Below, one piece after another: positions 887-43,388 of a DNA stretch of 45,815 nt. The position numbers and the translations under genes are program-made. Position 1 is the stretch's first letter. Every line of letters begins with the position of its first letter. The notes beneath the pieces are model-generated. The model searched no databases. It was not told the DNA's origin and was given only the letters and a program-made list of their open reading frames with translations. This DNA is from a virus: positions 1 through 45,815 of IMG/VR virus record IMGVR_UViG_3300028844_005013. The stretch is one strand, 5' to 3'.

Positions 887-900
887 TGCAAACGTTTGCC
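887..900. repeat. Dispersed palindrome copy 1 (non-coding)
   Basis: TGCAAACGTTTGCC: perfect 12-base core GCAAACGTTTGC at 888-899, in non-coding DNA upstream of the first two genes. Confidence 0.85.
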
Positions 901-1162
901 TTTTCTGCAAAGGGGTGGAACTAAAGCGAGTCTTGACGATTTGAAGGCTGCCCCGCTTCACGTATAGAAAGAACGCCGGCAACGGTAGCGCTCTTTCACA
1001 TTTCGATTCCCCTTCATGCAGCAAGGCAAGCCCCAGAGCTTGTTGGCTTCCACGCCATTTAGACCTTGTGGGCGGGCATGAATCGGTGGCCGGCCAAGCC
1101 ACTAGCGGTAACCTTGCCACGATGGCAAGGCCCGCGCAACTCCCTAATTGGAGCGAATCAAC

Positions 1163-1525
1163 ATGCAAACTGCATATGATTCTAACAACGCGCTACTTCG
1201 TAGCGTTCCTACCTGCGGCGACTTCGTTCGCTTCTGCGAATCCGATCACTTGGGCTTCGTCCAACTGGCCGATACGGTCGAGCTGGCCGATGAACAGGGA
1301 TTCGCCGTCCTGAACGACGGCATCCCCGTCCTGAACGACGGCATCCCTTTCGCTGGACTCTGCATCGACTCGGGTACCCTCGCGGGCGGCATGGTCATTT
1401 CGACTATCGAAAACGTCACAATTGCCAACCGACTTGATATGGAGATATCAAGTTGGTATCGGCGACTATGGCTTTCGCTGATCGCTTGCGAAAGCGCGGC
1501 CCTCGAAGCCAACGAGGTGGCATGA
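1163..1525 (+). CDS. Hypothetical protein, 120 aa
   Basis: I do not recognise this protein. ATG at 1163 is preferred over an upstream in-frame TTG at 1148 because GGAG at 1150-1153 is well spaced for it. The protein is acidic overall and contains an internal tandem duplication of seven residues, VLNDGIP, encoded by two copies of a 21-bp unit at about 1308-1349. It overlaps the next gene by four bases (ATGA), so the two are probably translated together and end at the terminator near 1990. The hairpin at 1112-1130 may lie in its leader. Coding is supported by the start signal and the overlap only. Confidence 0.6.
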   Translation: MQTAYDSNNALLRSVPTCGDFVRFCESDHLGFVQLADTVELADEQGFAVLNDGIPVLNDGIPFAGLCIDSGTLAGGMVISTIENVTIANRLDMEISSWYRRLWLSLIACESAALEANEVA

Positions 1526-1959: not shown

Positions 1960-1966
1960 GAAAATC

Positions 1967-1997: not shown

Positions 1998-2334
1998 CGG
2001 GCCTTGCCGTGTTTCTGTATCTTCCCGTTGCCGTGTTTTTCTTCCCTACGCCGATGCTCCAGTTGTTTTCTTTTCTGACTTTTTTTTCAGTGTTCCAGTT
2101 CATTCCCGTTGGCTCGTTTTTTTCAGGCCCATGCTCAAGCTCTCTCACTTTCTCACTTTTTTCCGACCCGGCCCGCCTCGCGCCCGCGCGTTATTTCGCG
2201 TATGCGCATGTACGTATGCGCGCCGCGCGCCCGCGCGCGCGTGGGTCATATGTATGTATGTGAGTATGCACATGTGAGGCGCAGACAGGCCCTACGCGCG
2301 CGTTGTTTGTGTGTGAGATCGCAATTTTCTGAGT

Positions 2335-2620
2335 AAAATTTTTCAATATTCGCGTATGCGTATATCTGGATATGCGTATATGTGAATTTTTCCAACTCCG
2401 CGTGCGTATGTGCGCGCGGTACTGAAGGATTTTCTAGGAAAAATTTTTCGAGTTCCGCACATACGCATATGCGAATATACTGGGAAATTTTCTGGGAAAA
2501 TTTTTTCTAGTTCCGCGGGCGTATGTATGTGTGCGCCTGCGCGCGGTACTGAAGGAAATTTTCTGGGAAAATTTTCCAATTCCGCGCCCGCGCCTGCGCG
2601 CGGTACTGAAGGAAATTTTC
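2335..2620. repeat. Iteron-like cluster: three exact 18-mers with A/T palindromes
   Basis: GCGCGCGGTACTGAAGGA occurs exactly at 2412-2429, 2539-2556 and 2596-2613. Each copy leads into an A/T palindrome block of the GGAAAATTTTCC or GAAAAATTTTTC type (for example 2438-2449); after the first two copies this ends in TTCCGC. Repeated G/C-rich sites beside A/T-rich segments are the usual make-up of replication origins, so this is the best origin candidate in the window. It could also be a packaging or regulatory region. Confidence 0.6.
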
Positions 2621-2710
2621 ATACATGTACATACATACATGTACATACTCGCGCATTGTGTATGTGTTTTAGTACGCACATTTTGAAGAAATTTTTTGAA
2701 CTTTCCCCAC

Positions 2711-2754
2711 GCACATACATACACATACTCGCGCACATACATACACATACTCGC
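2711..2754. repeat. Tandem 22-bp direct repeat
   Basis: Two abutting identical copies of a unit beginning GCACATACATACACATAC occupy 2711-2732 and 2733-2754. The unit is almost wholly alternating purine-pyrimidine. Confidence 0.75.
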
Positions 2755-2823
2755 CTGTTGGGTTTGTGCGTCAGAAACGTGCAGATTGAGAAAATTTTTC
2801 CATATGCGTTAACACCGCACAGA

Positions 2824-2837
2824 TGCAAACGTTTGCA
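2824..2837. repeat. Dispersed palindrome copy 2 (non-coding)
   Basis: Perfect TGCAAACGTTTGCA in the low-complexity region, 103 bases before copy 3. These two form the closest pair in the window. Confidence 0.9.
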
Positions 2838-2926
2838 AATGCAGATGTGCAGATATACCCCGTATGTCTGTGCGATTTTACGTGAGATTTACGTGAGATT
2901 TTCTAAACCCTGCTCACATACATACG

Positions 2927-2940
2927 TGCAAACGTTTGCA
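2927..2940. repeat. Dispersed palindrome copy 3 (non-coding)
   Basis: Perfect TGCAAACGTTTGCA. Its centre is 103 bases from that of copy 2, close to ten helical turns, which would suit looping or cooperative binding. Confidence 0.9.
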
Positions 2941-4338: not shown

Positions 4339-4357
4339 AAATTTACTACGTAAATTT
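4339..4357. promoter_or_regulatory. Inverted repeat upstream of the rightward gene block
   Basis: AAATTTAC-TAC-GTAAATTT: perfect eight-base arms with a three-base spacer, about 30 bases upstream of the putative -35 of the promoter at 4387. Possible operator. Confidence 0.5.
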
Positions 4358-4386
4358 TAGGAGAGGGGGAATAAAAAAAAACTTGC

Positions 4387-4414: not shown

Positions 4415-4459
4415 AGTGGCTCACTTCCGAAATGCGAATCACGAATCACGAGCCACGCC

Positions 4460-4914: not shown

Positions 4915-5184
4915 ATGCCTAAGTCAGGACCACGTCTACGATGGGCAGCGAAGGCTGAACTCAATCGCTTTGTTTACAAGCCAGCCAATGCACGGGAAGC
5001 TGCACACAAGTACACCACACAGGTACAACGTAAGCTCATACGTATCAAGTACCTGCAAGTCAAGCTCGCCGCTGATGGGCAGGATTTCCACTGGCAACCG
5101 CAAATCGACTTGGAGCGGGAAGCGTGCAAACGTTTGCTTCGAGGTCGTGAATATGTACTAGACACCCCCGGAGGCATACAATGA
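4915..5184 (+). CDS. Hypothetical basic protein, 89 aa
   Basis: Unknown. A strong AAGGAGG precedes ATG at 4915. The protein is rich in lysine and arginine with predicted helical character (AREAAHKYTTQVQRKL), which would suit nucleic-acid binding, though no family is recognised. A copy of the dispersed palindrome lies within the gene at 5126-5137, encoding Cys-Lys-Arg-Leu. The stop codon overlaps the start of the next gene (ATGA). Confidence 0.78.
   Translation: MPKSGPRLRWAAKAELNRFVYKPANAREAAHKYTTQVQRKLIRIKYLQVKLAADGQDFHWQPQIDLEREACKRLLRGREYVLDTPGGIQ
5126..5137. repeat. Dispersed palindrome copy 4 (in gene 4915-5184)
   Basis: Perfect GCAAACGTTTGC core inside coding sequence, read as C-K-R-L. 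Confidence 0.88.
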
Positions 5185-7225: not shown

Positions 7226-7237
7226 GCAAACGTTTGC
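7226..7237. promoter_or_regulatory. Dispersed palindrome copy 5, overlapping a start codon
   Basis: The core GCAAACGTTTGC begins at the last base of the AAGAGG Shine-Dalgarno (7221-7226) and covers the proposed TTG start at 7234. A protein bound here, or the self-complementary RNA, could directly affect expression of the downstream genes. Confidence 0.85.
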
Positions 7238-8233: not shown

Positions 8234-8548
8234 ATGAAAGCAATGCCAAACCTTTTGACCCCTGAACACCTAGCTGAGATTGCTTGCCGCTACTACCGGC
8301 GCATGTATGGTGAGAGCAGTTGCTCTAGCCGAGCTTCGCTTGCCCTGCACTATGCAGACAGATGCGCCAGACGTGTGAACGGTGGGCTGGAATACCACGG
8401 AGTGGAGGGGTCTACTGACCCTGACTTCCTGTATCTAAACGCTGGTGATACCTACGCCCTGACTGTGGTTGCCGAGCGAGGTCCGTGGGGTGACTACAAA
8501 TTCTCAGCCACTACATGGGGTGACATCATGGAGGCACACAGTGAGTGA
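8234..8548 (+). CDS. Hypothetical protein, 104 aa
   Basis: Unknown. ACGAGAGGACACA precedes ATG at 8234. Helical N-terminal half (LLTPEHLAEIACRYYRRMYG) and beta-rich C-terminal half. Overlaps the next gene by eight bases. Confidence 0.77.
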   Translation: MKAMPNLLTPEHLAEIACRYYRRMYGESSCSSRASLALHYADRCARRVNGGLEYHGVEGSTDPDFLYLNAGDTYALTVVAERGPWGDYKFSATTWGDIMEAHSE

Positions 8549-8738
8549 CCCACACCGCGCTCTCAATCGACGCTCTAAACGTGACAACAAGGCAGCACGC
8601 AAACGTTTGCATACTCGGATAGCTCATCTCCGTAAGCAGATAAAGACATGCAAGGCCGCAACGCAGCAAGGCAGGTACGATGTACAAGCACTAACACCTA
8701 TGATCCGCGAGCTTCAAGAGTTGAAGGCTCGGCTGTGA
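8541..8738 (+). CDS. Hypothetical highly basic protein, 65 aa
   Basis: GTG at 8541 follows GGAGG (8530-8534) with good spacing and is preferred over an upstream ATG deep inside the previous gene. The protein is very rich in Arg and Lys and predicted to be one long helix or coiled coil, compatible with nucleic-acid binding. Palindrome copy 6 (8599-8610) falls in it and encodes part of RKRLHTR. The next gene's GTG overlaps the stop. Confidence 0.7.
   Translation: MSDPHRALNRRSKRDNKAARKRLHTRIAHLRKQIKTCKAATQQGRYDVQALTPMIRELQELKARL
8599..8610. repeat. Dispersed palindrome copy 6 (in gene 8541-8738)
   Basis: Perfect GCAAACGTTTGC core inside coding sequence. Confidence 0.87.
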
Positions 8739-9442: not shown

Positions 9443-9456
9443 GCAAACGTTTGCAG
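9443..9456. repeat. Dispersed palindrome copy 7 (intergenic)
   Basis: Perfect TGCAAACGTTTGCA six bases after the stop at 9437 and about 80 bases upstream of the start at 9537. It lies just upstream of a weak TTGAAA-N16-TAATTT promoter-like pair (about 9463-9490). Confidence 0.9.
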
Positions 9457-10210: not shown

Positions 10211-11245
10211 ATGAGCAACGACATCCTTAACGCCTTTGTCGATCAAGTCGGAGATGAATCCCCCACCCTTACCCTCGAACAGATCAGCGAGGGATTGGGC
10301 CGCAAGCGTGTCTCAGTCACACTGCGCCGCAAGGTGAACGAGATGGTCAAGGCAGGTCTGCTTGATCACACTGACGGAAGCTACTCGCTCTCAGATGCAG
10401 GAGTGGAGATGGTGCTGGAAGGCACCCCGGTCGAAGAGACCACTGCCCCTGAGCCTGAGATCACCAGTGAGTTCGGCGACGACGGCAGCGAACCTGAAGA
10501 GGTGGTGACTGTTGAAGCTGAAATTGTCGAAGACGACGTTGACCTCCCACCTGAAGGGAGCTTCCCGTTTGTCGATGAAGACGAACCCGAGATCGTGTAC
10601 TCAGCGGAGGCAGTCGAATACCCGATGGTGGCCCGTGTCATGTGGGAATCTGAGGGGTTGTCCCTGAGTGGCATCACCGAAACCGACATCACCGTCCGTA
10701 AGGAATCCATTCGGGAAGCGGCACAGGTTGCAAAGACGATGAACGACCGGCTTGGTCTTGTACAAGGTGAACTCCTGTATGAGATCAAGGCAGGTGAGTA
10801 CTGGCAAGAGTGGGAGTTCGACAGCTTCGAGGCATACGTCGAGTCTGAGCTTGGATACAAAGCCCGCAAGGCCAAGTACATGATCGACATCTACGCCAAG
10901 TTTGTGCTTGAGTTGGGCCTGCCAATGGAGCGACTGAAGGCACTCGAATGGTCGAAGGCAAAAGAGGTGCTGACGATCATCGACAAAGAGAACAGCGACG
11001 AAGTTCTCGGGGTACTCGAAGAGTCCACCTTCAAGGAAGTGCAGTCATATGCCCGAGCTAAGAAGGGCAAAGCTGACGAGGTAGGTTTTACCCGGTTGTC
11101 CTTCTCCCTGAGTGAGGATCAAGCAGACATGGTCAAGCTGGCGCTTGCCTCTGCCTGTAAGGTGCTTGACTCAGACGAACAGGGGCGGGCCTTGGTAGCC
11201 ATGGCTGAGGAGTATGTCGCAACCTACGGTAGCGGAGATGCCTGA
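10211..11245 (+). CDS. Putative winged-helix DNA-binding protein, 344 aa
   Basis: Three parts are visible. Residues 1-70 look like a winged helix (TLEQISEGLGRKRVSVTLRR followed by KAGLLDHTDGSYSLSD). Residues about 75-130 form an acidic low-complexity linker. Residues about 160-290 form a helical domain (LVQGELLYEIKAGEYWQEW, then FEAYVESELGYKARKAKYMI). The last region resembles helical DNA-binding domains of ParB/KorB-like or phage DUF3102-type proteins, from memory only. It is a candidate regulator or DNA-organising protein and could be tested as the binder of the dispersed palindrome. It lies just upstream of the SWIM/AAA+/VWA set and overlaps the SWIM gene. Confidence 0.75.
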   Translation: MSNDILNAFVDQVGDESPTLTLEQISEGLGRKRVSVTLRRKVNEMVKAGLLDHTDGSYSLSDAGVEMVLEGTPVEETTAPEPEITSEFGDDGSEPEEVVTVEAEIVEDDVDLPPEGSFPFVDEDEPEIVYSAEAVEYPMVARVMWESEGLSLSGITETDITVRKESIREAAQVAKTMNDRLGLVQGELLYEIKAGEYWQEWEFDSFEAYVESELGYKARKAKYMIDIYAKFVLELGLPMERLKALEWSKAKEVLTIIDKENSDEVLGVLEESTFKEVQSYARAKKGKADEVGFTRLSFSLSEDQADMVKLALASACKVLDSDEQGRALVAMAEEYVATYGSGDA

Positions 11246-11642
11246 GACGTTCACCGACGTTATCCGTGCTAACTATGCACACGTCTACCTCTTCACCGAG
11301 GTGGGCGTGTGCAAAGTAGCGCGAGATAAATATGGAAATTTTTCAGAAGTTTTCTACCGGTGCGACACAACAACATGTGAGTGCCCAGCAGGCACACACG
11401 GTGTACGATGTCGCCACATCGAAATGAGAATGCAAACGTTTGCATCAAAGAAAGTAGTGAACGCAGTTAAACTAAGCGAGGTGCTAAGGAAATACGAAAC
11501 GCTCACGTTCGGCACACAAGTGACACACACCGTGCGTCCCGGTTGTGCTAACGTGATCTCCCGGAAACCCCGCGGAGACGAACCTTACCCGATGGTTGTC
11601 GCCATCGAGAATCATATCCCCCTATACTGGATCTTTACCTAA
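11238..11642 (+). CDS. Small SWIM zinc-finger protein, 134 aa
   Basis: A SWIM-type motif CxC-x(n)-CxH is visible about residues 48-64 (CDTTTCECPAGTHGVRCRHI). SWIM fingers bind zinc and mediate DNA or protein contacts. The same motif occurs at the N-terminus of the next gene's AAA+ protein, so the two are likely partners or products of domain duplication. The start is uncertain: ATG 11238 gives an eight-base overlap, ATG 11214 a longer one. Palindrome copy 8 (11431-11444) lies inside. The stop overlaps the next start (TAATG). Confidence 0.8.
   Translation: MPETFTDVIRANYAHVYLFTEVGVCKVARDKYGNFSEVFYRCDTTTCECPAGTHGVRCRHIEMRMQTFASKKVVNAVKLSEVLRKYETLTFGTQVTHTVRPGCANVISRKPRGDEPYPMVVAIENHIPLYWIFT
11431..11444. 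repeat. Dispersed palindrome copy 8 (in gene 11238-11642)
   Basis: Perfect TGCAAACGTTTGCA inside coding sequence, read as Q-T-F-A. Confidence 0.9.
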
Positions 11643-13129: not shown

Positions 13130-15208
13130 ATGGCATCTTGGGCAACAGGTATAACTAAGTGGTGGGAGCGGGGAGAAGAGGACCTCTTCTCTTTCCGTGG
13201 TATTAAGCGGGCAAACTTTGAACAGTATAAGAAGCGCCGCTCAATGGTCGAGCTAACTCGGAAGGCGTATATGACCTGTCGTATTCACGGCATGGATAGC
13301 CCCGAGATCAAGTTTGATCACAACTCGCTGGAAAGCAACGGGGAAACTAACTGTAAGGGCAAGATAAGCCTGAACCCACTACTCATACACAACCACCCGA
13401 TAGAGGAGCATGAGGGGTTGGTACTAGGGGTAGCCCTACATGAAGCGGAGCATAACCTTATCTCTAAAGAGATAGTGACGGAGATGGGTCGCGCTGACCA
13501 GTTCCTCAGCCGGGCTTTGAACTACTGCGAGGATGCTCGGGTAGAGTGGTCGGCGCGGGAACGCAGCCCGGGGTTCGCTAAGTATCTGGACCAACGGTCT
13601 GCCATCACCATGACCAAGGGGTTTGATGTACTCCGTAAGGAGTGGGAGGATATTGACCCTTTCACTAAAGCTACCACCATTAGCCTACTCACCCTGAAGT
13701 ATGATCGAGCGGTGCTCGACTTCATGCGGGATTGGGAGCGAGAAGGTATCCACCCGTTTAAGATCGCGTCTGCCCTCCGGCCCCTATGTAAGGATGTGAC
13801 GGGGGTGAAGAAAGCGGCTGAGGAATTAGCGAAGATGTTTAAGTACTTTGCTAGACGTGACGGCGCGGATTTTGATCTCAAAAAATTCGTGGAAGAATTC
13901 GGTGAGGGTGACGCTGACGACGAAGCAGGGGAAGGTGGGGCAAGCGAAGGTGAGGCTGGCGAGAAAGGTGAGACCGGCGAGAAAGGTGAAGCTGGCGAAG
14001 GTACTCCCAGTGAAGGTGAAGGCGAGGGTGAAGGTGAAGGTGGGGGCAGTGACGGCGGTGAGGCAGGCGAAGAAGGTGGTGACGGTGCAGGCACAGAGTG
14101 GAGTCGCGAGGAGGAACAGCAGGCAAGACGCTCATGTGCTAGCACCGGGAGGGGGGAGGCAGAAAGTAGTTCCGAACCTACAGCCTATATGTCACAACGT
14201 CGTGCTAGTGGGGACATCTGCGAGCAGCATGAGAGGCTAGGGGAACATGCCGCTAGGGTTGTTAAAGAAATGATACAGGCAGCGGAGGAAGATCTCGCAG
14301 ACAAAGTCGAGGAGCTTGGAGACGAAGAGAACAACAATTACGGCTCGGTAGTATCCCGCAAAGTGTCCCGGTCTACCCCAAAGATTGGGGGTAAGTTCTA
14401 CATGGAGAAGAAGTACATTGACACAGTCACTAAGCGTTGCCGCAGTAAGGTCAAGTTACTCCAACGGAAGGTTTCTATTGTACGCCATGCTGATAAGAGT
14501 TCCTTCCTGAAGGAACGGCAGGAGGGCGAGATTGACTTTGATAAGTTAGCCTCTGCCCGCATCTCCCGTAGGGTTTTCAAACTTGCAAACGTTTGCAAAA
14601 CTGAGGGACTTAGCTTGTGCTTGCTCTTAGACGAATCGGGGTCTATGCATTTCGATTACGGTCACAAAGGCTCCTTTGTTGACTTGGATACCCGTGCATC
14701 AAAGGTATTGGATATGGCATACACAATCGTAGCTGCCTTGCAGAAAGCTCCGAACATGGAGATCTTCGTATACTCACATGGTTCAGCACCGGGTTCCGAT
14801 TATGACTGCATGTACAAGGAGTTGTACTCCCCCGAGAATCCCGACATCAAAGGGATCTTCAACTACACCGGGTCTGTACAAAACTACGACCACATTGCCA
14901 TCAAACGGATAGGCGAGGAGTTCCTACAGCGAGCTACCTGTGAGCGTAAGATGTTCCTTGTTCTCTCGGACGGGGCACCTGAAGGTGAGGACTACGGCGG
15001 TGAAGGTGCAAAGAGGTTGACCGGCGCTGAGGTCAAGCGGTTAGAGAAGAAGGGCGTAAACATGTCGATGGTACAGATTGGATTTGCTGACCCCGACCTT
15101 ATGTTCACACACTACTTGGATCTCCGGGGGCATGAGTCGTCAGGTGACCTGACTTCACCCCTAGCTAAGTTCCTGATGAAGCAGATGAAAAAGTCTAAGG
15201 TGCAGTAA
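13130..15208 (+). CDS. Metallopeptidase-like + VWA protein (CobT-like), 692 aa
   Basis: The N-terminal domain carries HEAEH (104-108), a HExxH zinc motif, followed by NYCEDARVEW (131-140), which could supply a further ligand. A long Gly/Glu low-complexity linker (about 250-330) leads to a C-terminal VWA domain with a MIDAS motif LLLDESGSM (D501, S503, S505) and a later LVLSDGAPEG segment. This is the layout of predicted metallopeptidase-VWA (DUF2201/CobT-like) proteins that pair with MoxR/CobS ATPases, here encoded just upstream. Palindrome copy 9 (14584-14597) lies at the start of the VWA domain. The target of the complex is unknown. Confidence 0.88.
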   Translation: MASWATGITKWWERGEEDLFSFRGIKRANFEQYKKRRSMVELTRKAYMTCRIHGMDSPEIKFDHNSLESNGETNCKGKISLNPLLIHNHPIEEHEGLVLGVALHEAEHNLISKEIVTEMGRADQFLSRALNYCEDARVEWSARERSPGFAKYLDQRSAITMTKGFDVLRKEWEDIDPFTKATTISLLTLKYDRAVLDFMRDWEREGIHPFKIASALRPLCKDVTGVKKAAEELAKMFKYFARRDGADFDLKKFVEEFGEGDADDEAGEGGASEGEAGEKGETGEKGEAGEGTPSEGEGEGEGEGGGSDGGEAGEEGGDGAGTEWSREEEQQARRSCASTGRGEAESSSEPTAYMSQRRASGDICEQHERLGEHAARVVKEMIQAAEEDLADKVEELGDEENNNYGSVVSRKVSRSTPKIGGKFYMEKKYIDTVTKRCRSKVKLLQRKVSIVRHADKSSFLKERQEGEIDFDKLASARISRRVFKLANVCKTEGLSLCLLLDESGSMHFDYGHKGSFVDLDTRASKVLDMAYTIVAALQKAPNMEIFVYSHGSAPGSDYDCMYKELYSPENPDIKGIFNYTGSVQNYDHIAIKRIGEEFLQRATCERKMFLVLSDGAPEGEDYGGEGAKRLTGAEVKRLEKKGVNMSMVQIGFADPDLMFTHYLDLRGHESSGDLTSPLAKFLMKQMKKSKVQ
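14584..14597. repeat. Dispersed palindrome copy 9 (in gene 13130-15208)
   Basis: Perfect TGCAAACGTTTGCA inside coding sequence, read as A-N-V-C. Confidence 0.9.
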
Positions 15209-15209
15209 G

Positions 15210-15704
15210 ATGGAAATCGAAAAAGACACACTATTTGCAAACGTTTCCAGCATGAGCCTTCAGGTTCCCCAGTGTAAGATATACATTGGGGAGCCGGGGA
15301 AACCTGAGTTCGTAGGTGACACAGTCACCATACCAGATGACTACCTCATTAAACTCAAAGGTAACCGACCAGCCACAGGAAAAGAGCGTGGCTTTACCTA
15401 CATGACCCGAGCTTGCTATGAGAAATTCAAGGGGGAAATACAAGAGATAGTTGTCACTAGAATACGCCGCACCATTGACACTTATGGTTCAAAGGCGGGA
15501 CAGTACCTGAGTTGCGACTTCATACTGGATAACAAAGGTGGTTACCTGACTAGCGAAAAGCTACTCTCTCTTACCGACTGTGAGATATGGGAAATCTTCA
15601 CCAAGTTAATTGAAAAACATTTTCGCCAAGTCAGGCGAGGCACACAGAAGTATCGGGAGAAACTTGAGCAACAGCTAAAAGAACTAGACGGGGTGACGCT
15701 GTGA
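15210..15704 (+). CDS. Hypothetical protein, 164 aa
   Basis: Unknown. It starts two bases after the VWA gene and so belongs to the same unit. Mixed alpha/beta with a charged C-terminal helix (RQVRRGTQKYREKLEQQLKE). A one-mismatch palindrome copy (15236-15249) lies near its 5' end. Could be a further component of the AAA+/VWA set, by position only. Confidence 0.78.
   Translation: MEIEKDTLFANVSSMSLQVPQCKIYIGEPGKPEFVGDTVTIPDDYLIKLKGNRPATGKERGFTYMTRACYEKFKGEIQEIVVTRIRRTIDTYGSKAGQYLSCDFILDNKGGYLTSEKLLSLTDCEIWEIFTKLIEKHFRQVRRGTQKYREKLEQQLKELDGVTL
15236..15249. repeat. Dispersed palindrome, one mismatch (in gene 15210-15704)
   Basis: TGCAAACGTTTCCA, nine codons into the gene; one base differs from the consensus. 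Confidence 0.6.
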
Positions 15705-16214: not shown

Positions 16215-16444
16215 GTAGGTACTACCGGCAGAAGGGACGCAAGACTGCTGATGCTGGCCGTAAGCTGTCCACCTACATCCCATCCGAGAGGATGTGGATG
16301 GTGGATACCATAGATAACTACGTGTTTAATTTGGAGCGGGAGATGGCAACACCGTATAGCCGTAGTAAGTTCATCCTTGATATGATCGAGCTTGGTTTGC
16401 AAACGTTTGCAGAGAACCCCGACAATGAGAAGGTGATCCGGTGA
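16211..16444 (+). CDS. Putative ribbon-helix-helix protein, 77 aa
   Basis: After a basic arm (MSRYYRQKGRKTADAGRK), the segment LSTYIPSERMWMVDTIDNYV followed by SRSKFILDMIELGLQ fits a ribbon-helix-helix (CopG/Arc-like) fold: one strand and two helices. Such proteins are dimeric DNA-binding repressors and commonly bind palindromes. Palindrome copy 10 (16398-16411) lies within its own 3' coding region. The assignment is by pattern only. Confidence 0.65.
   Translation: MSRYYRQKGRKTADAGRKLSTYIPSERMWMVDTIDNYVFNLEREMATPYSRSKFILDMIELGLQTFAENPDNEKVIR
16398..16411. repeat. Dispersed palindrome copy 10 (in gene 16211-16444)
   Basis: Perfect TGCAAACGTTTGCA inside coding sequence, read as Q-T-F-A, near the 3' end of the putative ribbon-helix-helix gene. 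Confidence 0.9.
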
Positions 16445-20161: not shown

Positions 20162-20175
20162 TGCAAACGTTTGCA
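20162..20175. promoter_or_regulatory. Dispersed palindrome copy 11 (intergenic)
   Basis: Perfect TGCAAACGTTTGCA a few bases after the terminator and about 60 bases before the next start: an operator-like position. A second palindrome, CTTAGT-G-ACTAAG, lies at 20197-20209. Confidence 0.9.
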
Positions 20176-21679: not shown

Positions 21680-21693
21680 TGCAAACGTTTGCA
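21680..21693. promoter_or_regulatory. Dispersed palindrome copy 12 (intergenic)
   Basis: Perfect TGCAAACGTTTGCA directly upstream of AGGAGGT and the start at 21711. Confidence 0.9.
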
Positions 21694-24917: not shown

Positions 24918-25586
24918 TTACTCCCTCCCTAAAAACTTGAGTACCTGTTGTGACGCTGCCCACCCGGCTGACTCCTTGAAGGTAAGCTCAGGGAACTTCT
25001 GCTTGAACACACTAAGGGGATCATGCATGAAGACATCGAAGGATACCTCGCTCCATCGACCGTACTGCAAACGTTTGCACCACTTCGCCAAGGTCCCCCT
25101 ATACTTCTCAACTAACTTGGTAGCTCGGTCGTTGGTAAGGAGATCCCGCACTAGGAAGCTATCCAGAATTCGGTTAAGCCTTCTACGTACATGGACGATG
25201 TGACACTTGATCCCCCGAGCTTCTAACTCTCTCACGTATACAGGTAGAGTTAGGGACAACCGAGGGTCTTTGATACAGATAGCGGGACTGTCGTAACGAT
25301 CAAGGATATCCTTCACCTGCTGGTCATACTTTGTCTCCGTCATTAGGTGGCTGAAGTCTGTCTCTAACTCAGATAGAACCCAAGTCCCCGCCTCACCAAG
25401 GATAGTGTCATTGAGTCGCACTACCCTCTCATCCTCGAAGAACCCTTTGGGGTTGCCGCGGTCTGCGGGGATAAGGTCCAGCATCTGAACCGGCTCCCCT
25501 TTGTAGTGAGCACGGTAGAAAGTACCAGCCAGTGCCGAGGTACCAGACCGACCCACACCTACCAAAAGATAGCATACCTCTGTCAT
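24918..25586 (-). CDS. Sulfotransferase-family protein, 222 aa
   Basis: The 5'-phosphosulfate-binding loop-like GVGRSGTSALAGTFY (about 10-24) and the later ICIKDPRLSL segment match the PAPS-binding layout of sulfotransferases. Such genes occur in some environmental phages; the acceptor is unknown but could be a virion or cell-surface glycan made with the GalE and glycosyltransferases encoded in this window. Palindrome copy 13 (25066-25079) lies inside. Its start overlaps the recA stop, so the two are made from one message. Confidence 0.78.
   Translation of the reverse strand: MTEVCYLLVGVGRSGTSALAGTFYRAHYKGEPVQMLDLIPADRGNPKGFFEDERVVRLNDTILGEAGTWVLSELETDFSHLMTETKYDQQVKDILDRYDSPAICIKDPRLSLTLPVYVRELEARGIKCHIVHVRRRLNRILDSFLVRDLLTNDRATKLVEKYRGTLAKWCKRLQYGRWSEVSFDVFMHDPLSVFKQKFPELTFKESAGWAASQQVLKFLGRE
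25066..25079. repeat. Dispersed palindrome copy 13 (in gene 24918-25586)
   Basis: Perfect TGCAAACGTTTGCA inside coding sequence, read as C-K-R-L on the minus strand. Confidence 0.9.
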
Positions 25587-27243: not shown

Positions 27244-28602
27244 TTACTTTTTTCGTTCACGTGTGAAATCTAACTTGGTATACACCTTCTCGCGTGCGCC
27301 GAAAAGGCCGTTGGCATAGGGGATTGCGCGGTCTACCACATCGACAACCATTGGAGGCTTCTTCTCCTTGGTAGGTCGCTGGATACGGCCTACCATCTGA
27401 GCGACCCTACTACGAGGTGTAGCAAGAACCAAAGTATCAAGGGAAGGAATATCGGTACCCTCTCCAAACATCCCATAAGTTGCCAGAACAACTCTGCACT
27501 CATCAGCCGTCGCACTCTCCATGTCGTCAGTAGAACGATATTTGACTATCTTACTTCCTGACGAGGATAAGAGACCCTCAAGGCTGTCTAGTTGTTTTAC
27601 TCTGTCGGTGAGCACAAGTGTTTTCCTACCGGCCTTGATTGCTCTCATGCAAACGTTTGCAATCATCTTGTTCCGGTCTTCGTCTTCTGCTATCATGGTT
27701 ATCAACTTGGAGGTGTTCAGCCCACCTCCGCGGATCTTGGGGGGCGTCTTCTTTGCCTCCCACTCCATGACATAGTAACTACCTTTAACGACTTGCCCGC
27801 GCATTGTAACAAGCTGCGGACCAATACTCCAATCGAGTAAGCACTTCAACCCATCCCGGCGATCCGGGGTAGCTGTGAGACCCAGCTTATAGCGGGCTGA
27901 GAAACTGTTAGCTACCTTGGAAAAGGTCTGGCTAGGGACACGATGTGATTCGTCGGACACAAGGAAACCAAAGTGGTCGAAGAACCCCGAGGCTCGGAAA
28001 CTTTCGAGACGAGAGTACAAGGTCTGGAAGGTTGCGATCACAATGTGAGCATCCTTGACGCATGGCTCATTAGCCCGCACCTTGACTACCCGCGCCTCAG
28101 GCATGAACCTGTTGATCTCCCTCTCCCACTGGTCCATGAGGTCGCACTTGTGGACGAGGACAATAGTCGGGGTCTTCATACGTGCGATAAGGTGCAGGGC
28201 AGTGATAGTCTTACCCGCGCCGCAGGTTGCTTTGATCCAACCTCCGGTCTGCCCTTCACGGTACGCTTTGATTACCGCCTCGTCAGCTACCTGCTGGCCC
28301 GGTCGCAATAGCCCCTCAAACTTTGGGGGTCTAGTCCATGGTCCTTTCAGGTGGCTATATTGGGTACAATCAAACACTTCAAACCGGGTGAATGTTTTGA
28401 AGAAGTACTCACGTGGCATACCAAACCACACATCGCCACCTAGTGTGTTCCTCTCATAATGAGTAGAGACCTCCGGTGGTACCCCTTTTGCGTAGGGGTT
28501 CTCGACTACCAATGTAAGGTCTTCCTTCAACCGCTCAATACCTGTAGAGCCAAGGTCAACAGCGCGCGCCCACGCTAATCTATCTAAGGTTACTCGTATC
28601 AC
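27244..28602 (-). CDS. SF2 DEAD/H helicase, UvsW/Rad25-like, 452 aa
   Basis: Motif I ATCGAGKT (125-132), motif II DESH (217-220), motif III GLTATPDRRDG and motif VI MVGRIQRP show a superfamily 2 helicase of the UvsW/XPB-like type. Phage UvsW unwinds branched DNA and R-loops and helps start recombination-dependent replication. Palindrome copy 14 lies at 27648-27661 in the second RecA-like domain (ANVC). A strong promoter precedes the gene. Confidence 0.88.
   Translation of the reverse strand: MIRVTLDRLAWARAVDLGSTGIERLKEDLTLVVENPYAKGVPPEVSTHYERNTLGGDVWFGMPREYFFKTFTRFEVFDCTQYSHLKGPWTRPPKFEGLLRPGQQVADEAVIKAYREGQTGGWIKATCGAGKTITALHLIARMKTPTIVLVHKCDLMDQWEREINRFMPEARVVKVRANEPCVKDAHIVIATFQTLYSRLESFRASGFFDHFGFLVSDESHRVPSQTFSKVANSFSARYKLGLTATPDRRDGLKCLLDWSIGPQLVTMRGQVVKGSYYVMEWEAKKTPPKIRGGGLNTSKLITMIAEDEDRNKMIANVCMRAIKAGRKTLVLTDRVKQLDSLEGLLSSSGSKIVKYRSTDDMESATADECRVVLATYGMFGEGTDIPSLDTLVLATPRSRVAQMVGRIQRPTKEKKPPMVVDVVDRAIPYANGLFGAREKVYTKLDFTRERKK
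27648..27661. repeat. Dispersed palindrome copy 14 (in gene 27244-28602)
   Basis: Perfect TGCAAACGTTTGCA inside coding sequence, read as A-N-V-C on the minus strand. Confidence 0.9.
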
Positions 28603-31809: not shown

Positions 31810-31822
31810 TTCATTTACCCTT

Positions 31823-31836
31823 TGCAAACGTTTGCA
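31823..31836. promoter_or_regulatory. Dispersed palindrome copy 15 (intergenic, start-proximal)
   Basis: Perfect TGCAAACGTTTGCA in the 29-base gap between the stop at 31839 and the chosen start at 31809. Confidence 0.85.
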
Positions 31837-31838
31837 TT

Positions 31839-33625: not shown

Positions 33626-34608
33626 AATGATATTGTCTCTCTAAACTCGTGTAATTGTAACTCGTTGGGGTCTTTGTTTGGGGGTAGTTTCTCGGTCAAA
33701 TCTTCACAGCATGGTACTCTCCTTTCAAGTAGTTTGTGGGCTTGGTTGGCGCCTTTATTGCCAGCCGTGTCGTTGTCGAACATAACCCATGTTAGTAATT
33801 GTTCAAGTTCGATTTGGTCAATTTGTTCTCGGCTTATTGAACAGCCGCTGATAGCCACTGGCATTACTATCCCCGCCAACCCTAGCTTTGTTAGATGCTG
33901 CCAACAGCGCATGGCGTCAAATGGACCTTCAACCAGTATGTATGTTTTCGTTTCTCCCTCATAGTAAACGGGGGAGACAAAGCCTAACTCTGTCCTCGTT
34001 CCCCAGTAATGTTTCCACTTGTTGTCATCCTCACCGAGGGTTCTCCCACTTGCTCCTACAAACTTACCGGCAAGGGTATACACCGGGAACACTACCCGGT
34101 TATCCCTCTCATCCCACCGGCACCCAAAGTCGCGCCAAGTACGGGAGTCGAACCCTCGCTGAATGAGGTAATGCCCACCGGGATTGCAAACGGTTGCATT
34201 GGGGAGGTTGGTGTCAAACCAATTCCAGAGAGGGTCCATGTCATACACCTCCCTCACGTACTGTGGAGTACCTAGCCCACCTACAACGCGGCTTATTAAG
34301 GTGGATGGTCTACTCTCCTCAGCCATCAATGCCTGCCCCATCTCCCTAAGCTGGTCGCTCCCGCTGTAGATGGAGAGGGTGGTGAACAGTTGCCAGAACT
34401 TCCCCTTCTGCCCGCAACCGAAGCAGCGAAACGTGGAGGCACCATCATCATGGACTGACACAGTGAAGGAGGGATTAGCGTCTGACCCCTCATGTGTCCA
34501 CTGTGCGAATGGGCAAGAGAACTTCAAGTGATTGTTATTCTTCTGGATCGACAACTTGTCGGTTAGTCCTGCTGCCAACACATAATCTGTTACTTGATTC
34601 AGGTCCAT
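33622..34608 (-). CDS. DnaG-like primase, 328 aa
   Basis: An N-terminal CHC2-type zinc finger (C32, H39, C62, C65) and a TOPRIM domain (YILVEGPFDAMRC, then VMFDNDTAGNKG) define it. It makes RNA primers for the leftward-encoded polymerase. Shorter than cellular DnaG, lacking the long helicase-binding domain. A one-mismatch palindrome copy (34185-34198) is inside. Confidence 0.9.
   Translation of the reverse strand: MDLNQVTDYVLAAGLTDKLSIQKNNNHLKFSCPFAQWTHEGSDANPSFTVSVHDDGASTFRCFGCGQKGKFWQLFTTLSIYSGSDQLREMGQALMAEESRPSTLISRVVGGLGTPQYVREVYDMDPLWNWFDTNLPNATVCNPGGHYLIQRGFDSRTWRDFGCRWDERDNRVVFPVYTLAGKFVGASGRTLGEDDNKWKHYWGTRTELGFVSPVYYEGETKTYILVEGPFDAMRCWQHLTKLGLAGIVMPVAISGCSISREQIDQIELEQLLTWVMFDNDTAGNKGANQAHKLLERRVPCCEDLTEKLPPNKDPNELQLHEFRETISL
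34185..34198. repeat. Dispersed palindrome, one mismatch (in primase gene)
   Basis: TGCAAACGGTTGCA, one base from consensus. Confidence 0.55.
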
Positions 34609-36442: not shown

Positions 36443-37142
36443 TGAATCCTGCCTCCGGTGAATCGTCTTCTTTGAATCGCTTTAGCAGTGTCCGCTCATC
36501 AATAAAACCTGTGACCATAGTGTCACGGATTCGCCCAAAGAAGGACCCGGTGGCTAGTAAGTTGAGGGAAGGGGTTCCCTTCACCTTGAACTTCTCTTTG
36601 ATCTCATCCCAGTTTTCCATGTAGAAGTGGACTGTCTTAACGTACCCGTCGAAGTCATCTGCCAACCAAGTTAGCAAACGTTTGCAATAGACACTTCCCA
36701 TCTTGCTGCTGAGGGGGTAGGTTTTCTCGAACTTCTCCTCGTAGGCTTCCTTGAATACGTTGAAGGCTTTGCCTGAGGAGTGGCGTTTCTTCTTACCGAA
36801 AGCAGGGGCCGCTTTCTCAGTCAGTATCGAGTTCAACCCTGCGTTCCTGCTCTTAGTGAGTTTCTCTTTTACTGACTCTGCTATCTTCGTTGCCGGGATA
36901 ATGTGGTACTCCATCTCGGTTGCTTCATACTGAATAGGTCGGTTGTCTTCCGACAAAAGGCGTCGCCTCTTTAAGTCGGATATAGAAGCGGATACCCGAC
37001 TAGGTAGCATCCCTAGTTGGGTGCTCATCTCCTTTACTGAGGGCGTCTCCTCAAAGCAACACAGAAGAGCATATACTGCAATTGAGTTAGGGTTAGCTGT
37101 TGCGAACGCACCGGCCTGCAACGCCTGTAGGAAGTGTTCCAT
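36435..37142 (-). CDS. Winged-helix replication-type protein, 235 aa
   Basis: An N-terminal winged helix (TPSVKEMSTQLGMLPSRVSA, then LKRRRLL) is followed by a charged helical part (AFNVFKEAYEEKFEKTY). This is the layout of phage origin-binding or DnaD-like proteins that start the loader-helicase-primase operon. It is the first gene after the strong promoter at 37166-37193 and may bind the origin. Palindrome copy 16 (36674-36685) lies in it. Confidence 0.75.
   Translation of the reverse strand: MEHFLQALQAGAFATANPNSIAVYALLCCFEETPSVKEMSTQLGMLPSRVSASISDLKRRRLLSEDNRPIQYEATEMEYHIIPATKIAESVKEKLTKSRNAGLNSILTEKAAPAFGKKKRHSSGKAFNVFKEAYEEKFEKTYPLSSKMGSVYCKRLLTWLADDFDGYVKTVHFYMENWDEIKEKFKVKGTPSLNLLATGSFFGRIRDTMVTGFIDERTLLKRFKEDDSPEAGFSE
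36674..36685. repeat. Dispersed palindrome copy 16 (in gene 36435-37142)
   Basis: Perfect GCAAACGTTTGC core inside coding sequence, read as C-K-R-L on the minus strand. Confidence 0.88.
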
Positions 37143-38669: not shown

Positions 38670-39941
38670 TTAAAGATCCTTGAAGGGTTGTACTTTATTA
38701 TCGTAGACCACGGAACTATAACCGGATAAGAAGGGGGCATTAAGGATTGTCTCTAGGTTACTAGGGATCAACGTAATGAACTCATGGTAGAACCGGCGGG
38801 AGAAACGGGCTAACTCACACCCCCTACATCTCCGGCCCTTCCTCTTCTGGGCTTCCGCGTCAGCGATTCTCTTCTTAGTCTTGTCTGCAAACGTTTGCAA
38901 ATCGGGGAACAACTCAAGTATCTTGTCGCAGTCCTTCCAACATTGGGTAACCGTGTATGGCTTACCCCTACGTTTAGGGGGAGGTTGCTTCACAGGGGTC
39001 TCCTTCTCCTGTAGCGGGGAGGCGGGCACACCTGCAAGCATAGTACTAACCTTATCTACAGGGAGTTTTCTCTTGGGGGTGTACAGCCCGGATAGCTGCC
39101 GATCCTCCTTCAGTCCTTCTAATTTACTAGCCATACGTTTCCTTACAGCATACATGCCTTCAGTAATTTCCTTCTCCGGGTCACCTACCGGTTGCAAGGC
39201 GTACTCAATTGCCTCTTCAAAAGGGATGTGATCAAACGCCCGTAAGCCGCTATTCGCATAAGTGTTGTAGATGGTTACCCCTTCTGCCTCAAAGAATCTG
39301 CGGACTTCACTGAACATCAAGTTCAGCCCTGCGTAGGAGTTGTTGTTGGACCGGCACCCACCTGTATGTTTCTCCTCCTTGAACGAGTATGGTTGGTCGG
39401 GGTCCATGTGAAAATCGCACCCAACTATAAAAATTTTGGAGAACCCTAACTCATAAAGGAGGCGCATAGCTACCAGCATGACACTCCGTACGCCCGTTGC
39501 TTTCTTGTAGGTCTGGCCCTTCCCAAGTCCCCAGCATACCCGGTTAGAGGTGAGAAACTTCTCGGGGTCAAACCCCGTTTCCCTCGCGTACTGGTAGACG
39601 TTAGGAGCTTCCGTCAACTTTTTGGTATGGGGGACATCTAGCTCGGTGTCCCATAACTGCTTGGTGCAGAACCCTTGGGGGACAAACTTCATAATAGTCG
39701 GGTCAAAGTACACTGACTTTAGGAATCGGTCTGGAGGGTCAACACATGTCCACAAGTTGGGACGCACCGCTTTTGCTCCGTTGTTCACACACATCCTCGT
39801 TATGCCGGGTTTGTACAACAGCGACTTGTCAATCGCTGCCATAGCCTTTGGCCCATTAACGCAGAGGAAAGCAGATGCCCCCTTCATCATACCCTTCAGG
39901 GGTACTGGTTCATCTTGGCAGTTTAGTATCATGGCGCTCAT
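38670..39941 (-). CDS. DUF115-like protein with C-terminal Cys motif, 423 aa
   Basis: The segment AMRLLYELGFSKIFIVGCDF resembles the core of DUF115/Maf-like proteins linked to sugar modification of surface proteins, by memory only. The rest has a lysine/proline-rich linker (about 290-340) and a CRGCELARFSRRFYHEF C-terminal motif. It lies between a glycosyltransferase and a tail-like gene, so it may handle glycan addition on virion parts. Palindrome copy 17 (38886-38899) is inside. Confidence 0.65.
   Translation of the reverse strand: MSAMILNCQDEPVPLKGMMKGASAFLCVNGPKAMAAIDKSLLYKPGITRMCVNNGAKAVRPNLWTCVDPPDRFLKSVYFDPTIMKFVPQGFCTKQLWDTELDVPHTKKLTEAPNVYQYARETGFDPEKFLTSNRVCWGLGKGQTYKKATGVRSVMLVAMRLLYELGFSKIFIVGCDFHMDPDQPYSFKEEKHTGGCRSNNNSYAGLNLMFSEVRRFFEAEGVTIYNTYANSGLRAFDHIPFEEAIEYALQPVGDPEKEITEGMYAVRKRMASKLEGLKEDRQLSGLYTPKRKLPVDKVSTMLAGVPASPLQEKETPVKQPPPKRRGKPYTVTQCWKDCDKILELFPDLQTFADKTKKRIADAEAQKRKGRRCRGCELARFSRRFYHEFITLIPSNLETILNAPFLSGYSSVVYDNKVQPFKDL
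38886..38899. repeat. Dispersed palindrome copy 17 (in gene 38670-39941)
   Basis: Perfect TGCAAACGTTTGCA inside coding sequence, read as Q-T-F-A on the minus strand. Confidence 0.9.
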
Positions 39942-40690: not shown

Positions 40691-42936
40691 CGGGGGGAGA
40701 ATCCGAGTCTTTTCATCTGGTACCTTAGTACAGGCTTCTCTAACTGGGTAGCTACATACCACATCACAGTGTCATGGCTCGGGACCGGGAGTCGGTCACC
40801 ACACAGTTTGCTGACTACCTTAGTTAACTCAGTTGACTGCAAACAGTAGTAGCTGGCTATCCGTTTATGTCCATATCTCTCGTTGGGGGGTAGGCCCTCC
40901 GGGAAGAGCCGGGTTGCTCCGGGGAACTTATCTAACCACCAATCATCGAGTACGTTCAACCAGTGTTGGGTCTGACCGGGGTCCCCTTTGACCTTGGTAT
41001 ACCCCCACTTGTGTCCGACTAGGTCGTAGTCGAACCACTCATCGAAGAAGACCTTACAGTACCTATCGTTGTTCCGCTGTAGGAGGTGAACGTCTGCGTC
41101 TAGCTTTACCCAGTAAGGGGTCTTTACTTTTTCCGCGGCAAGGAACACAAACCCTGACAGCATCTTTTCCCTTTGGTTGTCTCCCGCCGGGGGGAACTCC
41201 CACTCAAAGATCTGTAGGTCCTTAGCGGGGAGAATGGTGCGGATCTGTTCATCGGTTACTGAGTCGTCCCTAAACACAATGAGGGGGTAGGACATTATGT
41301 TCATCCGCTGTTTCCAGTTTGCTGCATTCATCTTGAACTTCTTCATGTACTTACGATCCACTGCGGTCACAAACGTAACCCGCTCGTCTACCTCAGTGTA
41401 GTAGTACTTCCCACCTGACTTATCCTTCTGGCGAACTACCCCTAAGTCTCCCTGTGCTTTGATCCCTATGTCCTGCACCCTCAAAGGGATGTGAAGCCTG
41501 CCCCGGAACCCACGGGAATTCCGAATGAGGGCTAACTCTGAGTCGCCCTCCTCTACCCCTCGGGATATCGGCCAGTTATCAAGCTGGAATTTAATCAGCT
41601 TAGTTGACCACCATGAAGGGGAGGTTGACCCCGCCCTGACCCCGCGGTCTAGGAAAGAGATATGGTCTGCTTTCTGCGCTTCTGCTATACATCGAAGGTC
41701 CGCGAACTTAAACCCCTTGCCCGCCACCTTATCATCTTCCCAAATTATAGCATCGTGCTTGGTTTGTTCAAAACACCACTTGAGAGATAGACCATGCCCG
41801 ACATTCTCAGTCCTCTGATGGAATACTGCGTCATCAAAGAGGGGAGTCACCTCTTTGATCTGGGAGAGGGTCTCCTCTATCTGAGACTCCATAGCAGGTA
41901 CGTAATCAAGGTGTGCAACCCAACGTAACTTACACCCCTGCTTGTCAAACTTAGATAGGAAGTTACGCATTGCCTCCCCAACGGTAGCCCGTGGGACAAT
42001 AGTGGTGACAACGTCAAGCCACACCCCCTCACTTTTGGGAGGGTTCCTCCGAGAGGGAGGAGGGTAGATTGGGATAGCGGGTTCCTCTTGTACTTGCTCC
42101 ACTTCAGGTTGTCCCCCTTTTGAAATGTAGGGAGATACTGGGAGACGAACCTTCCGCATGTGGTCGGATAGTGCTTTGTCCCCTAGCGGATCTGAAAGGT
42201 AAAGGAGTTCTTGTTTCTCCCAGTAATAACTACGCCACTTCTTACTTAATGCCCACTTGCCTGTGTGCTTCCTGCCATGGAAGTGGGCTACCACACACCC
42301 GTCAAGACTACCATACCGTGCAGACCGATTGTACTCCTTGGGGGCAAGGTAATGTTTGAAGGAGGGGGCAAGGATCTGAGCACTAATCTCGTCTGGAATG
42401 AATAGGTTTTTTGCTGCCCCTAAGGGAGCGAGTTCTGTCCAGACCTTGATTATCTCGTGCCCCTTCTGGATACCAAAGACGCCTGTATTGATTGCCGTCC
42501 CATAGTTCAGGGCTTGCTCAATGTAGGGAGGGGAAACAATCCCCCGCCACCCTTCTATCCTGCCTTGGATAGTCTTACCTCGGGTGAACCAATCCTCGAA
42601 GTTAGTGAAGACTAGCCCATGTGTCTCGGTCCACTCAAAAAGCTGAGAGATATCCTGCATTACAAGAGTGTCAGCATCTAAGAAAACAACAGTGTCGTGC
42701 TGGAGGTATTCCAGTATAGCCACTTTGGTGACCAGTGTTTTCTCCTGCCCCCTCTCCGGGAAGGTAACGATCTTCACCGAGTATGACTCGCACACGTCCA
42801 TCAGTAGGGGGTGGGGTTCCCCCTCGTTATACACAACAACATCACCTGAGTAGTGGTCGCGTAAAGAGGCAATACTCACTGCCATGCGAACTAAACATTT
42901 GGTTCCAGAGTTAAAGTAAACTACAGCCTTGCTCAT
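40687..42936 (-). CDS. Multidomain glycosyltransferase, 749 aa
   Basis: Starts at ATG 42936 (GGAAGG upstream). The N-terminal module (about 1-260) is GT8-like with LDADT (D87, D89). A middle module has IIWEDDK (about residue 399). A C-terminal module has WVKLDADVHLL (about residue 613), another DxD. So two, perhaps three, GT-A domains appear fused, which could extend a glycan in steps. A Pro-rich linker (IPIYPPPSRRNPP) separates the first two. ATGA overlap with both neighbours suggests one transcript from the fibre genes on. Confidence 0.85.
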   Translation of the reverse strand: MSKAVVYFNSGTKCLVRMAVSIASLRDHYSGDVVVYNEGEPHPLLMDVCESYSVKIVTFPERGQEKTLVTKVAILEYLQHDTVVFLDADTLVMQDISQLFEWTETHGLVFTNFEDWFTRGKTIQGRIEGWRGIVSPPYIEQALNYGTAINTGVFGIQKGHEIIKVWTELAPLGAAKNLFIPDEISAQILAPSFKHYLAPKEYNRSARYGSLDGCVVAHFHGRKHTGKWALSKKWRSYYWEKQELLYLSDPLGDKALSDHMRKVRLPVSPYISKGGQPEVEQVQEEPAIPIYPPPSRRNPPKSEGVWLDVVTTIVPRATVGEAMRNFLSKFDKQGCKLRWVAHLDYVPAMESQIEETLSQIKEVTPLFDDAVFHQRTENVGHGLSLKWCFEQTKHDAIIWEDDKVAGKGFKFADLRCIAEAQKADHISFLDRGVRAGSTSPSWWSTKLIKFQLDNWPISRGVEEGDSELALIRNSRGFRGRLHIPLRVQDIGIKAQGDLGVVRQKDKSGGKYYYTEVDERVTFVTAVDRKYMKKFKMNAANWKQRMNIMSYPLIVFRDDSVTDEQIRTILPAKDLQIFEWEFPPAGDNQREKMLSGFVFLAAEKVKTPYWVKLDADVHLLQRNNDRYCKVFFDEWFDYDLVGHKWGYTKVKGDPGQTQHWLNVLDDWWLDKFPGATRLFPEGLPPNERYGHKRIASYYCLQSTELTKVVSKLCGDRLPVPSHDTVMWYVATQLEKPVLRYQMKRLGFSPR

Positions 42937-43388
42937 ATTGCCTTCCATTTCCCTAGTGGGCAGGACTCAACCGCGAGTCCCGCTTTCGCTACCATTATAC
43001 AACCACAGTCCCCGCACACTCCCTCGTCAGGATCAAATAATGCGCATGAGTTGCAGATATCTAACCGAGTGTTGTGGACTTCTTTTGTTACCTTTATATG
43101 CTTGTCTCGGACTAACCCCCTTATCACCCTCTTCCCTGCCCCGGCTAAGTTCTTAATCCTCTGAGGGAGAGGTGGTGGGGTTATGGGGGTGGTGGTGAGC
43201 CAGTGGTTATTTTCAACACTCACCTCTTCGGGTACCCCCGCGGCACACTCGTACGCACAGGGAGCGTCTCGCCACTCAACCCCGTTGGATTCCGCTTGCG
43301 TGATAAGGTGACGGCGAAAAGTGCAGTCCCGTAAACAAGCGTGACAAAAAGACTCCGGGACTGCCTTCTGCAAACGTTTGCATTTCAT
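42933..43388 (-). CDS. Double zinc-ribbon protein, 151 aa
   Basis: Two Cys sets: C15, C18, C22 with C44, C48, then C112, C115, C125, C128, C130 with C143 in a final SCPLGKW segment. The C-terminal part (RLDICNSCALFDPDEGVCGD) matches a small zinc-ribbon type often found next to glycosyltransferase genes, from memory. AGAGGTAAG precedes its start, and palindrome copy 18 covers codons about 3-7. Confidence 0.78.
   Translation of the reverse strand: MKCKRLQKAVPESFCHACLRDCTFRRHLITQAESNGVEWRDAPCAYECAAGVPEEVSVENNHWLTTTPITPPPLPQRIKNLAGAGKRVIRGLVRDKHIKVTKEVHNTRLDICNSCALFDPDEGVCGDCGCIMVAKAGLAVESCPLGKWKAI
43369..43382. repeat. Dispersed palindrome copy 18 (in first codons of 42933-43388)
   Basis: Perfect TGCAAACGTTTGCA six bases after the first base of the start codon at 43388, a position able to affect translation or transcription. 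Confidence 0.9.

Follow-up and report, generated by a model that had tools for sequence, protein, structure and literature searches.

Why would a virus carry one short palindrome again and again, between its genes and inside them, over its whole genome? The question is raised by the IMG/VR virus record IMGVR_UViG_3300028844_005013, analysed here as a window of 45,815 nucleotides (nt), in which the 12-mer GCAAACGTTTGC occurs 18 times without mismatch, 13 of these copies being the full 14-mer TGCAAACGTTTGCA. Both counts had been given in an original prediction made from the sequence alone and were reproduced, with coordinates accurate to within one base, some of the listed values being starts of the 14-mer. 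The three one-mismatch copies that it named, with 12-mer starts at 237, 15237 and 34186, are present as well, i.e. GCAAATGTTTGC (237..248), GCAAACGTTTCC (15237..15248) and GCAAACGGTTGC (34186..34197), none of them assigned to a strand. Chance was excluded as claimed: 100 dinucleotide shuffles of the window gave a mean of 0.00 and a maximum of 0 copies, none of 60 control palindromes drawn with the same composition was present, and the reversed motif pattern had no match in the window.

The contig G014 (IMG/VR 3300028829_004004, 65,525 bp) matches the window at 99.8% over positions 19174-45815 and at 98.3% over 1-1440. Since the two overlap at both ends, they represent a circular virus of about 83.3 kb, which carries 29 exact copies of GCAAACGTTTGC, i.e. 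around one site per 3 kb. A megablast search of window bases 1-25000, the half that was searched, against deposited phages gave no match. When viral contigs were scanned for the 14-mer, at least 115 stretches matched, 80 of which were listed, and 50 records, each chosen for holding at least one copy, were counted whole. A single copy was found in 28 of the 50, and the rich records were G029 (44 copies in 102 kb), G014 (20 in 65 kb), G011 (17 in 98 kb), G006 (15 in 85 kb) and G037 (10 in 27 kb). Except for G014 with G037, these motif-rich contigs share little or no alignable DNA; what they have in common is proteins.

The palindrome of the window turned out to be one version of a site that is spread through a lineage of siphophages. 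The versions share the frame TGCAA-N4-TTGCA and are dispersed over the genome, with a centre specific to each phage; absence from relatives, which had been named as evidence that would speak against the motif, was therefore not what we saw, as the relatives carry the motif or versions of it. Carriers include cultured siphophages of ~80-110 kb from Rhizobium, Stenotrophomonas, Pseudomonas, Aeromonas and Rhodobacter, more weakly those from Vibrio, as well as dozens of viruses known from metagenomes and one Rhizobium plasmid of 109 kb. Scanned blindly for over-represented inverted repeats, all eight cultured genomes loaded gave palindromes of this frame, i.e. TGCAACnnGTTGCA in L338C (47 copies), RHph_I4 (45) and HJ05 (16), TGCAATnnATTGCA in DLP5 (27) and RcZahn (8), TGCAAnnnnTTGCA in TM16 (16), and weaker palindrome signals in KarBoss and SIO-2. 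The same scan showed no strong dispersed palindrome in the control phages Mystique, N4 and P1, and the pattern TGCAANNNNTTGCA was absent from all four controls (these three and K478b). Among 30 viral contigs of the first scan, each holding at least one TGCAANNNNTTGCA, 24 held one, five held two and G004 held four.

The lineage could also be reached through a protein, p10211 (phrog_17202, of unknown function), encoded on the plus strand of the window at 10211..11245. A profile search with p10211 found 55 viral loci, and in 50 records from this search, which include near-duplicates and one 109,558-bp record that is apparently L338C itself, TGCAANNNNTTGCA was present in 37, with 520 copies in total as against 3 for the reversed pattern. 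Of the 23 records that reach 59 kb or more, 21 had six or more copies, and the two long records without TGCAANNNNTTGCA carry palindromes of their own, TGCAGAnnTCTGCA 28 times in G095 and TGAAATnnATTTCA 8 times in G081. The prediction that records newly found by p10211 homology would hold sites mostly held, with 30 sites in Pseudomonas SM1, 42 in the Rhizobium plasmid p7, 15 in RHph_Y1_11, 31 in DLP3 (which is close to DLP5) and no exact site in VHS1.

In the Vibrio group the sites are degenerate. Compared with TGCAATnnATTGCA, SIO-2 has 1 exact, 23 one-mismatch and 1 two-mismatch copies, KarBoss 0, 25 and 25, VHS1 0, 10 and 18, and 1.215.A 0, 10 and 9, respectively, while no other arm version exceeded 9 two-mismatch copies in these genomes; all these counts are without a shuffle control. 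The sites of SIO-2 and KarBoss are systematically imperfect, as if their affinity had been tuned down.

Could the sites belong to a host protein, i.e. PurR or another regulator of the LacI family, and serve the phage as decoys or as borrowed regulation? The 12-mer is literally equal to ACGCAAACGTTTGCGT, which we take to be the PurR operator core, and the original prediction had listed decoys of a host purine repressor among its options. However, GCAAACGTTTGC occurs in none of the 10 cultured relatives, which use other centres in the same frame, and this frame is kept across hosts of different classes. Within Rhizobium, L338C, I4 and p7 share one version, and TM16 and Y1_11 (the latter from the first listed sites) share another. 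Specificity thus follows the phage and not the host, so that we regard the equality with the PurR operator core as incidental and a host protein as an exceedingly improbable reader.

Sequence comparison indicates that individual sites, where they can be aligned, are under strong selection. Between the window virus and G037, which are 71% identical where aligned, all six alignable sites are intact, against a background of 0.020 of comparable windows. For L338C and RHph_I4 (80%), all 37 L338C sites that could be aligned are intact in RHph_I4, and in the other direction 37 of 40, the remaining 3 having one mismatch, with a background of 0.13 in each case; the two central bases agree in 19 of the 37 and differ in 18. 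Across 12 genomes, 358 exact sites compare with 77 orientable one-mismatch sites. In the pair G086/G082 neither of the 2 alignable sites is kept, and the other genome pairs gave no alignable sites (G009/G030, G028/G041, G029/G034). Being selected, lineage-wide and phage-specific, the sites argue against host PurR sites, decoys and chance alike.

Where do the sites lie? In 15 genomes, 273 of 430 were intergenic, compared with 70 expected, according to a home-made, unbenchmarked gene finder that misses genes, as it calls just 67% of the window virus coding. According to the independent annotation of plasmid p7, a stretch with 94.8% coding sequence holds 16 sites, of which 10 lie between genes; 8 of these 10 begin 1-14 nt after a stop codon. 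Among oriented intergenic sites between tandem genes, 76 of 255 begin 0-5 nt after the stop. Both this intergenic preference and the position behind stop codons would be in line with operators or stoperators, through which a repressor, possibly a KorB-like p10211, silences transcription across the prophage. Some sites, however, lie within genes, the sites are palindromic rather than directional, and base composition around them has no strong A+T peak (no promoter scan was run).

The position behind stop codons could also fit recombination or packaging marks, or boundaries of gene modules, the more so as a conserved block of recombination genes lies beside p10211 in cultured relatives. Such marks are nevertheless very unlikely, given palindromic and non-directional sites, an even spacing that module boundaries would not lead one to expect, and flanks of the L338C/I4 sites whose identity of about 80% equals the genome average. 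No evidence was found for a packaging or modification tag, another of the earlier options.

The spacing, too, speaks against operators. In 13 of 15 genomes, which are not all independent, sites are spaced more evenly than under a null with the counts of intergenic and genic sites held fixed (Fisher P about 4e-25), i.e. more evenly than gene gaps impose, HJ05 and G074 being the exceptions. Outside these 15, spacing is even in SM1, p7, G096 and G040 and indistinguishable from random in RcZahn, G037, G009, G028 and G041, mostly with few sites. Mean spacing is 2-5.5 kb in most genomes, and the sites span the whole replicon, neither clustered nor proximal to an origin. Regularity at the 2-5 kb scale fits a function in coating the genome and is hard to explain by promoters. 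The arms are inverted repeats, and the orientation of the centre is mixed in most genomes, with a one-sided tendency in G064 (22 to 3), HJ05 (1 to 8) and L338C (12 to 26). An RNA hairpin element, considered for the post-stop position and the strand-leaning centres, was not supported by 5 wobble-type versus 11 opposite changes.

The 18 exact copies of the window illustrate this mixed placement. Sites 1 (888..899), 2 (2825..2836), 3 (2928..2939) and 5 (7226..7237) have no strand; site 6 (8599..8610) lies between the open reading frames (ORFs) 8234-8548 and 8648-8893, site 7 (9443..9454) begins 5 nt past an ORF end at 9437, and sites 11 (20163..20174, present too in the overlapping contig G014) and 12 (21681..21692) are intergenic. 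Lying within ORFs are site 9 (14585..14596, in 13130-15208), site 10 (16399..16410, in 16211-16444), site 13 (25067..25078, in 24918-25586), site 14 (27649..27660, in the helicase ORF 27244-28602) and site 16 (36674..36685, in 36435-37142), as well as site 4 (5126..5137, in 4915-5184) and site 8 (11432..11443, in 11214-11642), whose ORFs are uncalled by the home-made gene finder. By that finder three further sites are intergenic, i.e. site 15 (31824..31835), site 17 (38887..38898) and site 18 (43370..43381), which fall in the listed ORF 31489-31881 (start codon uncertain), in the listed ORF 38670-39941 and at the start of the listed ORF 42933-43388, respectively.

Which protein, then, might read the sites? 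Nine families were found in all 20 compared genomes, namely PolA, portal, helicase, DnaB, RecA, primase, a Cas4-like exonuclease, a small RecA-adjacent protein and p10211. Two of these are without known function, and of the two only p10211 has the look of a DNA-binding protein, the small protein between helicase and RecA (20 of 20 genomes) showing no DNA-binding feature by eye. Homologues of p10211 occur in G029 and G011, weakly in G006 (E 0.081 in a single-sequence search), and in cultured siphophages of Vibrio, Rhizobium, Stenotrophomonas, Rhodobacter and Aeromonas; the L338C member is gp074, and a locus search with the window protein alone as query gave no relative. The gene directly follows RuvC in the recombination block of SIO-2, L338C, RcZahn, RHph_TM16 and RHph_I4, a position that it does not have in the window.

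The C-terminal helical domain of p10211 is predicted to resemble the DNA-binding domains of ParB and Noc, to which the window member adds an N-terminal winged-helix-like part. In the AlphaFold2 model of the window protein, residues 181-280 have predicted local distance difference test scores with block means of 94-98. Among the structure matches listed, to whose fold families the comparison extends, DNA-binding domains of Noc, ParB and Spo0J took ranks 1-10 (Z 8.1-10.0), followed by Raf1 (7.9); the best match was Noc 7ol9 (Z 10.0, root-mean-square deviation 2.8 over 101 residues). A model of a second member matched ParB/Noc at Z 7.5-9.1, Raf1 at 6.7-9.2 and KorB at 6.5-6.8 (1r71 Z 6.8, 8qa8 Z 6.5), with nothing else above 5.0. 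The CTPase domain ParB_N was not among the Pfam matches of the 41 p10211 members. From the predicted domain and the presence of the family in all 20 genomes we infer that p10211 is the best candidate for the binder, a role the original prediction had proposed for the 10211 product and which is thereby strengthened, the binding itself being putative. The G006 relative (L129:1514-2842) has histone-H1-like KAKAAPKAKA stretches.

Other readers fared less well. The product of 16211, likewise suggested earlier, looks like a ribbon-helix-helix protein by eye and has no Pfam match; it is a poor candidate, as a search of other motif phages turned up nothing better than E 0.069 and thus no clear relative. 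A regulator beside the helicase that looks MerR-like by eye (family of DLP5 43342-43743) was present in 15 of 20 genomes and not found in the window virus or G029, and is hence not the reader common to the lineage.

We therefore put forward, with about equal confidence for and against, that the sites may be bound by a phage-encoded, two-fold symmetric protein, that p10211 is their reader, and that they mark the genome in a Noc-like manner for its organisation or maintenance. Such a protein would belong to the siphovirus lineage; the conserved p10211 would use a ParB/Noc/KorB-like DNA-binding domain without the CTPase domain, and would coat the genome with regular spacing, working in the way of Noc or of a dispersed centromere. 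Coating may then organise, tether or partition the phage DNA, which in some members is an extrachromosomal plasmid, and silencing of transcription as by KorB would possibly be added to this. Somewhat more tentatively, a widespread siphophage lineage that partly forms plasmids may possess its own sequence-specific nucleoid system, in which a CTPase-less ParB/Noc-like protein and palindromes every 2-5 kb, diversifying between phages, keep the DNA organised, segregated or distinguishable from that of the host.

Several observations weigh against this proposal. Since p10211 itself led to 16 of the 20 compared genomes, its universality is partly by construction, and among the other 4, which the motif had brought in, G006 shows a weak match. 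Within the 41 members, matches to any one Pfam family were confined to a single protein at most, a comparison with PDB sequences gave no meaningful match, and Foldseek with both models gave none at E<=0.001. For helical proteins the tool advises caution over a range that includes a Z of 10, and for the second model Raf1 scores as high as ParB. The p10211 helix that is best conserved, YRKAMYLI, stays the same in G095 and G081 although their motifs differ, and over 136 of 190 pairs p10211 (0.47) tracks motif distance no more closely than RecA (0.54) or primase (0.53) does. Covariation of p10211 residues with motif class was set aside as evidence, since it is confounded by descent. Furthermore, G009 and G030, of a different phage lineage, hold the 12-mer 5 and 6 times without p10211, and the authors of the respective reports call the Samunavirus phage UF_RH6 and the Vibrio phage R21Y lytic, which weakens a role restricted to lysogeny.

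The case of G009 and G030 leads to a further explanation, i.e. a partition centromere read by a phage protein of the ParB_N type, with p10211 unrelated to the sites. G030 encodes a protein with ParB_N and HTH_ParB and G009 has a ParB_N match, which ties the word again to a ParB-type reader; matches to ParB_N were found in 14 of 25 records, and plasmid p7 has two proteins annotated with a ParB N-terminal domain, though PF02195 gave no match there. Against this, ParB_N was not found at E<=0.001 in the window virus (G000, G014) or in RcZahn, both of which have exact sites, nor in SIO-2 and KarBoss with their degenerate sites, nor in VHS1, and we consider such a centromere unlikely. G030 additionally encodes GroEL and a sigma factor.

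Does the lifestyle of the lineage help to decide between marking of the genome and operators? DLP5 and DLP3 are described as temperate, and the DLP5 prophage as replicating as a phagemid (PMC5834331; PMC7326821). VHS1 has been called extrachromosomal (PMC3148565) and has also been described as integrating (PMC10671443), and unstable lysogeny is reported for the Vibrio members VHS1 and R21Y (PMC10671443). The Rhizobium bangladeshense plasmid p7 (NZ_CP071625, 109 kb), from a sequenced strain, combines the replication core of the lineage with its 42 sites. Temperate members speak for operators, as does KorB, a ParB relative that is reported to repress at a distance from RK2 operators and to act as a clamp dependent on cytidine triphosphate (CTP) (PMC11790492). 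So does the occurrence of the Vibrio members with unstable lysogeny in the group with degenerate sites, which is suggestive of a link between site quality and lysogeny in what is a tiny sample. Since members called lytic fall into site-bearing groups too, lytic growth and lysogeny are equally likely settings for the function of the sites. Overall, operators or stoperators seem to us a rather unlikely but serious explanation; of the earlier options, condensation or segregation and a regulon or stoperators are both still live, and what stands is that the sites are real, selected and genome-wide.

The window virus encodes PolA, a DnaB-like helicase, a primase, a second helicase, an epimerase, a baseplate hub match and a MoxR/CbbQ-type ATPase, in addition to relatives of phage portal, RecA and RuvC proteins. 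Several of its large proteins resemble glycosyltransferases or sulfotransferases by eye, and those scanned gave no PHROG match. Dense degenerate repeats of the GTATGTATGTGT and AAATTTTC type occupy window positions 2300-4340, and a poly-serine protein and 15-nt tandem repeats that reach the contig end occupy 43403-45815.

In the open-licence PMC papers searched we found no report of such a genome-wide site system in phages, and the word 'palindrom' is absent from the papers on DLP3, DLP5, R21Y and UF_RH6. Dozens of cultured and uncultured phages are covered by the dispersed sites, a core gene annotated as hypothetical (p10211) gains a testable role, and the quality of the sites may be linked to stable lysogeny in the plasmid state. 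Moreover, the diverging pairs of protein and site offer a natural series for studying how DNA specificity evolves. The lineage is not alone in this: the control Vibrio phage K478b (OZ195910) has its own, unrelated dispersed palindrome TTGGTCTnAGACCAA, with 36 copies of TTGGTCnnnGACCAA where 0.05 are expected, unevenly spaced (coefficient of variation 1.20) and with no p10211 match at E<=1. This second system shows that more dispersed-palindrome systems exist among phages.

How does the system compare with those already known? Bacterial chromosomes have site systems that extend genome-wide, that of MatP being one of them. Sites of this reach are also described for Noc and SlmA on bacterial chromosomes, and in Bacillus subtilis about 70 palindromic Noc-binding sites (NBS) are dispersed round most of the chromosome (PMC4331003). 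Dispersed palindromes are the likeness with Noc, whose DNA-binding domain tops the matches of the p10211 model. Noc differs, however, in being a CTPase, which binds the membrane (PMC8429893), whereas no such domain was found in p10211, and here there is around one site per 3 kb on 83 kb. With ParB/parS the phages share palindromic sites, a similar predicted DNA-binding domain and, in some members, a plasmid state, but parS sites hardly ever lie away from the origin (PMC7383237), while the phage sites cover the genome and neither p10211 nor the window virus has a ParB_N match. The stoperators are alike in being many and dispersed in intergenic DNA, and differ in symmetry, the phage sites being palindromic, with a centre orientation that is mixed in most genomes and one-sided in G064. 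Those of the mycobacteriophage L5 type belong to a temperate phage, are asymmetric and are oriented with transcription. The OB sites of KorB, in turn, are dispersed over the plasmid RK2, so that both systems scatter their sites over an extrachromosomal element and have a similar predicted fold (1r71, 8qa8); p10211, in contrast, is without the CTP clamp domain, and the phage sites are more numerous and evenly spaced.

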